Below the pieces are notes generated by a model. That model was not told the DNA's origin. It did no database searches and saw nothing but the letters and a program-made list of their open reading frames with translations. A stretch of DNA of 64,000 bases, from assembly GCA_010015805.1 (NCBI GenBank), contig ML978128.1, forward strand, positions 620,001 to 684,000, read 5' to 3'. This DNA comes from Rhizodiscina lignyota (Eukaryota > Ascomycota > Dothideomycetes > Aulographales > Rhizodiscinaceae). A program made the translations under genes and the position numbers. How positions within the stretch are numbered: the first letter of the stretch is position 1; each line of letters begins with the position of its first letter. Shown piece by piece: positions 20,739 through 27,844 of the stretch.

Positions 20739-22258
20739 GATAATGAAATATAGAAAGTGGGACGCGGCTCATCGGGCTCATCGAGGCTTCAGGAGATGGA
20801 TTCAAACGAAAGCAAGCCCTGTATGAACGCGATTGAAACGCGCTTGTTCATCGAGCCACGCCACCAGTCTGAGTTGGGGCCCCAGAATGAGCAGACATAT
20901 GCGAACAAGTGCCTTGAGGCTCTAGATCCCCAACGTACTCTCATCGCTTCTCCCAGGCGCCACAGTTGACGAAAAACGCGTGACTTGCAGAGAGTGCCGC
21001 ACGTCATGATTGTATGTAAGCGAATCGCAACCTTGGAAGGCGGAAGCCCCATCGAAGCGGCGGAAATAGTATTTCCTAATTCGTCCGTGGTCTTAAAGCG
21101 GCGTGGAGTGACTTTTCTTTTTCACGGGCCGGCGGCTCTCTGGCTAATACATTTGTCTCACACTTTGACTCCAGAGAACTCTTCGTCAAGTTTCCAAGCC
21201 TCAGCAAAATACGCCGATGGTCAATGGTAATAGAGTATCAGGCTCTTGTTACATCCGAGGGGATGTTCCTGCAGCCAAATACGTAACGCCCCGCCTGTCG
21301 CTCTCTGGGCATTTCGCCTGTTTTCTTGCCTTACGTCGTCGATCAACAATGCTTCATTCAGTCACCTTCAGCCTCTGGTAGTGTCTGCAGCACTTCGGTC
21401 CGCAAAATTTTCCAAATCGTTTTGCCATGGCATTTCGTTCGAATAAGGTTATCAGATCCGCCTCAAGTTTGGTTCGAACGTCGATCTTTGCATGCGGCTC
21501 GGGCTTAGCCCATATGTTAGGACTAGCGATGCAGAGTTGCGCCATCTTCATTAGGCGACGGATCAGATATGCTGCGCAAACCTGCTTGATCCCATGTTTC
21601 CTGCTTGTCTTCAGAGTAACTCGTGCCGTACGATGGCTATCCGACTTCGGCAGACACTTTCTTGTACGTACACGCCTGCTTTATTAAGACTCTCATCGGT
21701 TGTGCCTGAAAGCCGTACTCCACCACGATGGGCACTTGGCTGGCGTCATTCGGCGGCAGCTCCTTTCTCAGAAATAGCTGTGGCTTGGCCGAATAGTCTC
21801 GGGGCGGAGTGGAGGCCACCAAGCCAGACCAGAGAAATGGTCTTAATGAGATCTACAGGTTTGAATTCCCCTCCAGGACAACTGGGGCACATTGTGCCCA
21901 CCATATTGAAGAAAATTACTTCTCTCACGCAGTCACAGGGTTGGTCTTGAGATGAGCCAGTTCCTTTGTGGAACTTGCGCTCAGACACTCAGGCTATGTA
22001 ACCAAGCGAGCATATGTTTACAGCTGTACAATGATGCTGAGATCGCCCAGCAATGCACAATCATGGAAGTAAACTACCTGTGCCTTACAGGTTTCCAAGG
22101 ACCGATGGCGTTTTGGCAGTTCAGCTCTTCTTTTGCAGCCGATGGATACCCAACATTTAGTCATCTTGAATGCGGAGGCCTTTCACACCAAATTGCTCAA
22201 ATTTACGACGCACTGCTCTGATATGGAGCCCTAAAGCGCACATAGCACAGAATAATCA
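20739..22258. promoter_or_regulatory. Divergent promoter region between synthetase and ABC transporter genes
   Basis: This 1.5 kb region separates the starts of the synthetase (minus) and the ABC transporter (plus), so it should hold both promoters. It contains one exact SreA-type site and a one-mismatch copy (ATCAGATAT, 21562-21570). Open frames inside it (for example 21427-21687) have no recognisable domain and are taken as chance. Confidence 0.7.
21449..21457 (-). promoter_or_regulatory. Exact SreA-type iron GATA-factor site
   Basis: The plus strand reads TTATCAGAT, whose complement ATCTGATAA is a perfect match to ATCWGATAA, the extended site bound by fungal SreA/Sre1/Urbs1-type iron repressors. 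It lies about 0.7 kb upstream of the synthetase start and 0.8 kb upstream of the ABC transporter start. Binding is inferred from the motif and from the iron-related neighbours. Confidence 0.7.
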
Positions 22259-25200
22259 ATGGAGCCAGCTCTAGCTCCCCAACAACCAGTCAACTTCCCG
22301 GTTATTCAGCTCGAAGCCTACGATGAATCTATCGGAGATGCAGTCTCCAGAGCTCGGCGCAGTTCTGTTCGATGTTCCAACGCGTCAAGACAACATCAAG
22401 AAACTTTGTCGCTTAGCACGGCTCAACATCATGTCTATATTCAAAACTTTGGACGTATTTCCAGACAACTCCTCAAACAGATCCTTGGCCTCAATCCCTT
22501 CAAAACTTCGTATGCGACACTATACAAATCGTTGGAATCAACAAAAAGCAGGCTTCTTCTGTGTACAGCTATTATACTTTCTCTAGCGGCTGGAGCGCCA
22601 TTGCCTATAATTGGGCTCCTGTTCGGGAAGATTATCGATGAATTTCCCCCTCCTGAAGACGAGTTGCGCACCAGGCTCGGGCAACTAATGGTAAAAGCCC
22701 ATGTTATCGTTTTCGTTCTTGCATTGTACTAATCTATGTCTCATGATTCCAGGCAACTGCCTGTGCATACTTTGCTATCACATGGGGCTGGTCGGTATGC
22801 TGGTCAATTATCGGCGAGACAATATCAAGGGAGCTTCGAGAAAGGTCTCTTGAGCGGCTGCTTGGCATGGATCAGGCCTTTTTTGATATACATCAACCTG
22901 ACGTTACAGGAATTGTTACAGAGAAAGTTCAGACTGTCCAGCTTGGCACATCCGAAAAGGTCGGGCTCTTCTTACAGTCCATAAGTTACTTCCTCGCAGC
23001 ATTTGGCGTTGGCTTCTACCTTCATGCGAAACTAACAGGAATTCTTCTCGCAACCGTCATTCCCGCAATGACCATCATCATCTTTTTTGGCTCAGCTCTC
23101 ACCTCGCAATTCTCCAAGAGAGCAGCGTCATGCTCGGAGGAGGCAGCCGCTCTAGCAGAGGATGCTATATCTGGCGTCAAAACGGTCCAGGCCACTGGTG
23201 CTTTCGACGCTCTGTGCGACAACTATCGAAAGATACTCAATGCAAAGCTTCACTGGGGTCTGCGTAAATCGATGTCTGGGGCTGTCATGCTTGGATGCGT
23301 ATATTTTGTTGCCTACGCTGCTAACGGGCTAGCATTCTATGTTGGTTCAAAAGAGATAAATAACCAGGGCGGCAACGGCGCAGGAACCATCTATGCTGTC
23401 GTGTTCTTGATCCTCGATGCTTCCTTCGTTGTCGGCCAATTCGGTCCCTTCATACAGACGTTTGCTCTTGCAGCGTCCGCCGGAGCATCGATATTTGGCC
23501 TACTTGAGCGCAATTCACCGCAGATAAATGTATATGCATCCCATGGCCGAACTGTAAGCCGTAATTTGTTTAAAAGCCCCATCGAGTTCAAGGACCTCAA
23601 CTTCGTATATCCTTCTCGACCCACGTGTCGCGCCTTGGATTGCTTTTCTCTCAATCTTGAGCCTGGAATCATGACGGGTATTGTCGGAGCATCTGGATCT
23701 GGAAAGTCAACTCTAACACAACTATTGCTCCGGTTCTACGATCCGTCAAGTGGGCAGATTATGCTAGCTGGACACAATCTCCGAGAGTACAATGTGGCAT
23801 CGCTCAGGTCACACATCTCTCTTGTCGGTCAAGATCCAGTTCTCTTTGCCGGTAAGGGCCCAATGTCCCCAGTTATCATCCTTAATGTACACTCAGGCCA
23901 TAGTCTTGACGAATTCTGCTAATTTATGCTGCACAACATTAGGCACGATTCTCGACAATATCCGCCATGGCCTCTCTGAGCACCACAGACTCACTGAGGT
24001 CGAGCTTCTCCAAAAATGTAAACAAGCAGCAAGCGACGCTGGCTGCGACGAGTTCATCACTGCTTTACCCGAAGGGATGAATACCGGAATTGGAAGTGCC
24101 AATTTCTCTCAACTCTCTGGAGGGCAGAAACAGCGCGTTGCGCTTGCCAGAGCTCTAGTTAGTAAGAATAGCACTGTGCTTTGCACTATTCTATTTCAAT
24201 CTACTGTTAAATGTGATGTGAACTTTGCTAATACATTGCACACAATTTTAGGTGATCCAGCTTTGTTAATTTTAGATGAATACACAAGCGCAATGGACGC
24301 GAAAAGTGAAGCAATGGTCCTTCAAAGCTTGCTCCGGCGCTCGCGGAATCGAACGATTCTTGTCATAGCCCATCGACTCGCAACAGTTCGAGATTGCTCT
24401 CGCATCGTTGTGATGAGCCAAGGCCGTATCGTTGAAAGTGGAACTCATGATGAGCTAGTGCGACACGGAGGAGCATATCGATGTCTTGTGGACGCTCAGA
24501 CTCTCGATAGCACCGATTCATCCTCGAACAGTTCAGGTGAATGCACTGAGACAGTTGCCGATTCACCTGCAAGCACGAGATCTTCCGTCTCCAGCGCAAA
24601 CTCTCACTCTGCGGAGGACCTTCCAGCTCTGCAGTCACAAGAAAAGCTTGGAATTTTGTGCGTCATGAGTAGAGTGTTTCGACTAAACAGGGACAAAAAC
24701 TTGTATACCGCAACGGGTCTGCTTGCCTCAGCGATCAGTGGTGCGACTTTGATTGGCGAAGCAGTAATCTTCGGGAACCTCATCAACATCCTCAACAACA
24801 CCGGACCATCCATGTCTCAGGCATCCTTCTTTTGCTTGATGTTCTTCGTTGTATCATTGATCGCATTGTTAGCTTACAGTACTAGTGGTGTTGCTTTCGG
24901 GATCGTTTCTGAATGGCTAGTGTTGAAAGTACAAGAGCAGTCACTCCGAACGATCCTGAGACAAGATGTCAACTGGTTTTCCAGCCCACGCCGATCCCCT
25001 CACCATCTTGTGGCCTCGATTGGCGCAGACTCTGGTCGCCTTAGCGGACTTTCTGGTGTTATATTAGGGACCGTTGTCTCTGCACTCACGTCAGTTTTTG
25101 GCGGGATTGTGTTGGCCCACGTCGTTGCGTGGAAGATTGCCATTGTCCTTCTTGCATGCGTACCGGTCATGCTATTGTCTGGCTTTCTACGCCTGAGGAT

Positions 25201-27165: not shown

Positions 27166-27174
27166 TTATCAGAT
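27166..27174 (-). promoter_or_regulatory. Exact SreA-type iron GATA-factor site
   Basis: The plus strand reads TTATCAGAT, complement ATCTGATAA, a perfect ATCWGATAA match about 0.67 kb upstream of the oxygenase start. It is 214 bp from the end of the preceding exact site. Confidence 0.7.
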
Positions 27175-27844
27175 GAGATTATGTGCTTCGACTCCCAGCG
27201 CGATGGGACAGCAATGGGTTTCGCGTCGAGGCGTCGGCAAGGCTGATCAACCTTCCATCATGGCGCTTCTCGACGGAGGAATGGTTCCTGGCGACAGTAA
27301 TTGCACTACGCGCCCTGACGCGATGAGCCGGCGCAATGCCAACCGGACAGTCTCGGCTTTCTTTTCTATGGCGGGAAGGTAAGATAGCTTGTACGGAGCT
27401 ACACCATGACCCCAGACCCTCCTGGTGGCATGACAAAGCGGCAACGCCAAAGCTACTTCACATGGCTGCCGCTATAATTTTATTTTTTTTCGAGCTTTGA
27501 GCTTCGTACTTCATGATTCACTACTTCCTCTAACTGTCTGTTGTCTGATCAATTTCGGAAGCTCTGTGATTAGAGTCGTTCCATTTCCCCTTGCGTCCAT
27601 TTACGTTGCGTCATAGACTACAAACTTTTCTACCGATCCAAACGAGTAACCTCTCCCCACTAAATGCCATAGGAGATAGCAGCCACAACATTCCAACAAA
27701 TATATTGCCCCCCTTACAGCGGCACGATATCTGGGAGCCTTCAGAGACCGGTAAGTTTAGCCATGTTGGTCCAAAGATGTAGCCAATACTCACAGGCAAA
27801 TAAGCACATGTTGGGAATGTCGTAGAGCTAATTCTATCGGCAGA

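Follow-up and report, generated by a model that had tools for sequence, protein, structure and literature searches.

Does iron control the siderophore cluster that lies in a 64-kb stretch of the genome of the ascomycete Rhizodiscina lignyota (GCA_010015805.1, contig ML978128.1, positions 620,001 to 684,000; the whole stretch is hereafter called the window), and are its genes controlled jointly? The cluster holds the genes of a multimodular nonribosomal peptide synthetase (NRPS), an ATP-binding cassette (ABC) transporter and the L-ornithine N5-monooxygenase SidA. Its intergenic DNA carries the word ATCWGATAA (W, A or T), which was defined by Schrettl et al. (2008, PMC2610380) as the word over-represented in the Aspergillus fumigatus SreA regulon. 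The three copies found are very probably SreA-type sites, and it appears highly probable overall that they serve the fungus's own SreA orthologue in the iron repression of sidA, NRPS and ABC genes.

A scan of both strands of the window yields three exact matches, all on the minus strand. The first-pass annotation, made by eye, had placed them at the same positions and had found no other exact copy in 64 kb, as the scan confirms. They are given below with the related elements and the two intergenic stretches in which they lie; the start codons of the NRPS, ABC and sidA genes were picked by eye.

21449-21457, minus strand: exact site ATCTGATAA with a 5' G, between the divergent NRPS and ABC genes, whose start codons are about 710 and 802 bp away, respectively
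21562-21570, plus strand: near match ATCAGATAT, a full ATCWGAT palindrome with a single mismatch at the last base, 113 bp from the preceding exact site
26938-26958, no strand assigned: dense GATA array with two ATCTGAT palindromes 8 bp apart (26938 and 26946) and TGATAA (26953)
26944-26952, minus strand: exact site ATCAGATAA with a 5' A, inside the GATA array in the stretch upstream of sidA, about 893 bp upstream of its start codon
27166-27174, minus strand: exact site ATCTGATAA with a 5' C, in the same stretch, the start codon of sidA following after about 671 bp
20740-22258, no strand assigned: divergent NRPS/ABC intergenic stretch, with no CCAAT box
26531-27844, no strand assigned: intergenic stretch upstream of sidA, with CCAAT at 26842 and 27783

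Taken by itself, the total of three is unremarkable, because dinucleotide shuffles of the whole window hold 1.28 copies on average and reach at least three in 17 of 100 cases, and because the density of the word in the genome (421 in 33,415,348 bases) leads to 0.81 copies expected per 64 kb, with a probability of about 0.05 for at least three. The intergenic placement of the sites, on the other hand, goes strongly beyond chance. Among 4000 dinucleotide shuffles of the two intergenic stretches (2833 bp together; mean 0.04 copies), at least one, two and three copies are reached in 157, 5 and 0, respectively, and ATCWGATAA is the only one among the 2700 words of the form NNNWNNNNN present there to have at least three copies in the two stretches and none elsewhere in the window. 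The observation made in the first-pass annotation holds, its strength lying in the placement of the sites and not in their count. When one mismatch is allowed, the window contains 33 matches for 27.5 expected, a number reached by 11 of 100 shuffles; with such matches at background level, the signal resides in the exact word.

Regarding the genome as a whole (33.4 Mb in 29 contigs), ATCWGATAA is found 421 times and the reversed word 218 times. The excess over the reversed word is greatest with a 5' A (110 against 42) or G (115 against 51), intermediate with C (106 against 56) and least with T (90 against 69), a preference that agrees with the published consensus (G/A)ATC(A/T)GATAA (PMC2848559). 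Spacing was analyzed for 390 of the 421 places, corresponding to 377 sites after overlapping palindromes had been merged. Among these listed sites, 15 neighbouring pairs lie less than 500 bp apart, in 13 clusters, for 2.1 pairs expected if the 377 sites were evenly scattered. The first 100 of the 218 places of the reversed word, inspected by eye, include one non-overlapping pair within 500 bp, with 0.3 expected.

The genes found at several of these clusters connect the word with iron. In the 12 clusters besides the window, a choice of open frames was scanned, two to five per locus and more in some. With the window included, four of the 13 clusters lie at clear iron-acquisition genes, three at probable ones and six at genes without an evident link to iron. 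The clear and probable loci are the following.

L014: FTR1 and multicopper oxidase genes, divergent, with the sites in between; clear iron locus
L015: second sidA and a GNAT acyltransferase gene, divergent, with the sites in between; clear iron locus
L016: SidD-type NRPS, whose frame with the N-terminal domain lies 230-260 bp downstream of the sites; clear iron locus
Window: NRPS, ABC and sidA genes; clear iron locus
L018: major facilitator superfamily (MFS) transporter downstream of the sites, 55-59% identical in pieces to the MFS transporter of a second siderophore cluster; probable iron locus
L021: MFS transporter downstream of the sites, 36-42% identical in pieces to the same transporter; probable iron locus
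L024: ferric reductase frame at a distance of 2.5 kb on one side of the sites and a fasciclin gene on the opposite side; probable iron locus

A search of the PDB with two MFS transporters gave no match. Seven of the eight looser clusters, with spacings of 500-1500 bp, were also looked at (L026 to L032, with C1:3356299/3357693 left out). In L026, the sites are followed after 1.5-2.2 kb by a ferric reductase frame, an intervening frame matching no known family, and in L027 one site falls within a ferric reductase frame and the other 3' of it. No evident iron gene was seen among the frames scanned at the five others.

The same association is obtained from the iron gene families back to the sites. 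Two clear ornithine monooxygenases are present in the genome (269 and 183 bits), the next match reaching 41 bits when the second exon of the first gene is set aside. In the window gene, the matched part is preceded by exact sites at 895 and 1117 bp, and in the second gene by exact sites at 377 and 450 bp, while the sole FTR1 gene found has sites 210, 1106 and 1171 bp upstream. As a background, 1.8% of the positions on contigs C1 to C4 have a site, among the matches listed, within 1500 bp upstream. Both clear sidA genes and the FTR1 gene found, together with the clear and the probable iron loci among the 13 clusters, agree with a word shared by the iron regulon of this genome. Three GNAT acyltransferase genes pass the cut-off; one uses the intergenic stretch of the second sidA and two are without sites of their own.

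A candidate regulator can be predicted from the genome. Eight GATA fingers were found, most in frames other than the SreA-like one, which is a single frame of 197 amino acids (C2:2438349-2438894) with two fingers (PF00320). Each of these seems split by an intron at one end, exactly four cysteines lie between them, within 19 residues, and the adjoining frame has a charged, helix-like C-terminus according to a by-eye reading only. The features described for SreA-type regulators are a pair of fingers, a region with four cysteines and a coiled coil at the C-terminus (PMC2848559). By its two fingers and the four cysteines between them, the protein encoded at this locus is SreA-like. As for HapX, a 17-position profile of the Hap4 family matched nowhere, controls included, and is uninformative. 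The earlier description of the window sites as SreA-type iron sites is well supported because the same word clusters at other iron genes, namely FTR1/multicopper oxidase, the second sidA, the SidD NRPS and, with less certainty, transporter and ferric reductase genes, and because a SreA-like protein is predicted.

In the mechanism that can be proposed, the three words would be binding sites for the SreA orthologue, a two-finger GATA repressor, with each finger possibly taking one half of the partial palindrome ATC-W-GATAA. With ample iron, SreA would occupy the sites upstream of sidA and those in the NRPS/ABC stretch and reduce transcription; under iron starvation, its release would allow a joint rise in ornithine hydroxylation, in siderophore assembly and in the linked transporter. 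The single common site, 700-800 bp off, would have to act on both the NRPS and the ABC genes. Both binding and iron dependence are what we infer for these sites, and joint iron repression of the three genes is a prediction, strongest for sidA, with its two exact sites and dense GATA array; for the NRPS and ABC genes it is weaker.

Several observations weigh against this reading. Just one exact site is available to the NRPS and ABC genes together, and the published iron responses of this class of NRPS are mixed: it belongs to the SreA regulon in A. fumigatus, the sidC orthologue of Scedosporium shows no iron response (PMC5932178) and NPS2 of Cladosporium fulvum is barely expressed under iron depletion (PMC3895014), the last case being a warning not to take joint induction for granted. 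Most of the 421 genome sites are single, the gene surroundings having been read at clusters. Sites confined to 35% of the genome, as if intergenic, would give 6.0 pairs within 500 bp, and therefore part of the excess of pairs may merely mirror where non-coding DNA lies. No evident iron gene was found among the frames scanned at L013, L017, L019, L020, L022 and L023, and the sites of L019 (4780 and 5084) fall inside an open frame. In L024, two same-strand frames without a known family, which may or may not belong to the ferric reductase, lie between it and the sites 2.5 kb away, so the sites may be those of a neighbouring gene. TRI12-type transporters show no clear excess, with a site within 4 kb upstream in 4 of 51 gene groups for about 2.3 expected, and the 9.9 kb around the SreA-like gene contain no exact ATCWGATAA.

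Three other explanations have to be compared with SreA control. That the matches arose by chance would fit the shuffled range of the whole window and the borderline probability at genome density given above, but not the two intergenic stretches, where no shuffle reaches three copies, nor the second sidA, which independently has two sites in its upstream stretch; this account is very improbable. Were the sites to serve another GATA factor, e.g., in AreA-type nitrogen control, they would not be specific to iron, and both the number of fingers outside the SreA-like frame and the six of 13 clusters at genes without an evident iron link could be so explained. However, iron acquisition is the commonest class that can be named at the clusters, with its four clear and three probable cases, and the only cluster near an ammonium transporter (L023) sits 3' of that gene, which makes control by another factor improbable, if less so than chance.

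A possible, though still rather unlikely, alternative is that the sites are real and control sidA alone, the NRPS/ABC site being non-functional and regulation not joint. It overlaps with the explanation preferred here, in which the NRPS/ABC part is left open. That two genes have a single exact site, at a distance of 700-800 bp, is in its favor, as is the weak or absent response of sidC-type genes in some fungi; on the opposite side stand the full-palindrome near match at 21562, close to the exact site, and the membership of sidC in the SreA regulon of A. fumigatus (PMC2610380). With SreA control as the preferred reading, the cluster is most likely an ordinary member of a known iron regulon, whose least ordinary element is an ABC transporter located beside, and perhaps co-controlled with, a ferricrocin-type synthetase.

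The genes of the cluster are arranged as follows.

4777-20739, minus strand: multimodular NRPS with AMP-binding, PP-binding and Condensation domains, in a layout like that of ferrichrome/ferricrocin synthetases
22259-26530, plus strand: ABCB-type (Ste6/P-glycoprotein-like) ABC transporter with ABC_membrane and ABC_tran domains
27845-29501, plus strand: sidA, L-ornithine N5-monooxygenase (PF13434), closest solved structures 6x0h and 4b63

The frame of the NRPS is broken at about 20430, 13930, 13810, 11620 and 9540, and since these breaks resemble short introns by eye, the gene looks intact. Its last frame, at the C-terminal end, contains three Condensation and two PP-binding stretches. No family matched the first frame of the ABC transporter (22256-22732). 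The best structural relatives of SidA are chains named L-ornithine N(5)-monooxygenase, and the gene occupies the end of the cluster opposite the NRPS, beyond the ABC gene. A multimodular NRPS with further terminal T-C units and an ornithine N5-monooxygenase in the same cluster correspond to the ferricrocin-type (sidC/NPS2) layout; the product may be ferricrocin. A comparison with Rfam at gathering scores gave no match. Elsewhere in the window, a minus-strand open frame of 874 amino acids without a Pfam match (43157-45781) lies in a stretch with a strong swing in AT skew, from 0.154 in 42001-44000 to -0.190 in 44001-46000.

A second siderophore cluster is located at C2:47000-85900 (L036, L015, L034, L035 and L038), with genes for an MFS transporter, a GNAT protein, the second SidA (sidA2), an AMP-binding enzyme, a DUF1749 protein, an ABC transporter, the SidD NRPS, an enoyl-CoA hydratase and a further GNAT protein. 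Five exact ATCWGATAA occur in these 38.9 kb, for 0.49 expected. The SidA proteins of the two clusters are 37% identical in the larger piece, and their ABCB-type transporters 33-40% identical in the main aligned pieces. It can be speculated, as a doubtful proposal, that the fungus has two siderophore modules under SreA control, wired separately and each equipped with a sidA and an ABCB-type transporter of its own, and that the window transporter is repressed together with the ferricrocin-type NRPS and serves to export or relocate a siderophore usually deemed intracellular.

Some loci with sites deserve mention in their own right. The frame that bears the sites of L019 has a C-5 cytosine DNA methylase domain and adjoins a SNF2-type frame. 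In L013, sites 4790 and 5165 precede the frame of a P450-reductase-like diflavin reductase, for which no iron role could be shown. In L022, two sites spaced by 10 bp (4929 and 4939) adjoin frames that match no known family, with a Zn2Cys6 domain in a distant frame; they possibly mark a target not yet recognized. For L023, a nitrogen-control reading was rejected, the 5' end of the ammonium transporter gene facing away, on the far side. In L033 (C7), a TRI12-type MFS transporter has a single exact site (4542), 208 bp before its first matched codon.

A known iron-repression word and its genome-wide clustering are now tied to a fungus with two siderophore clusters, of which the NRPS/sidA one bears an ABC gene. 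Candidate iron-controlled promoters are those of L014, L015, L016, L018, L021, L024 and the window, with L026 and L033 as weaker ones, and whether an ABC transporter is part of the iron response of an 'intracellular' siderophore becomes testable.

With regard to known systems, no SreA sites in a cluster of the NRPS-ABC-sidA kind were found described in a literature search with subscription papers mostly outside it. The A. fumigatus regulon, which takes in sidA, sidC, sidD and ftrA/fetC, shares with R. lignyota both the word and the gene classes, siderophore transporters included, with the difference that the word is tied to SreA expression data there and is known from sequence here (PMC2610380). 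For the Sre1/SREB proteins of Histoplasma and Blastomyces, the likeness is (G/A)ATC(A/T)GATAA upstream of siderophore genes; this comparison covers the motif in other species, gene neighbourhoods lying outside it (PMC2848559). The NPS2 locus of C. fulvum has the same order of genes, an NRPS, an ABC transporter in between and an L-ornithine N5-oxygenase, and a possible role of the transporter in secretion is suggested by the authors of that study; in contrast to the window, SreA sites are not mentioned for that locus in the available part of the report (PMC3895014). Cladophialophora carrionii also has two siderophore clusters with a sidA in each, namely sidC/sidA1 and sidD/sidF/sidH/sidI/sidA2. 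There, HGATAR and ATCWGATAA are reported in the promoters of regulated genes, and induction of sidA1 by iron starvation was measured (PMC10382037). Unlike in R. lignyota, sidA1 and sidC share one common promoter without an intervening ABC gene, which is found in the other cluster instead (PMC10382037).

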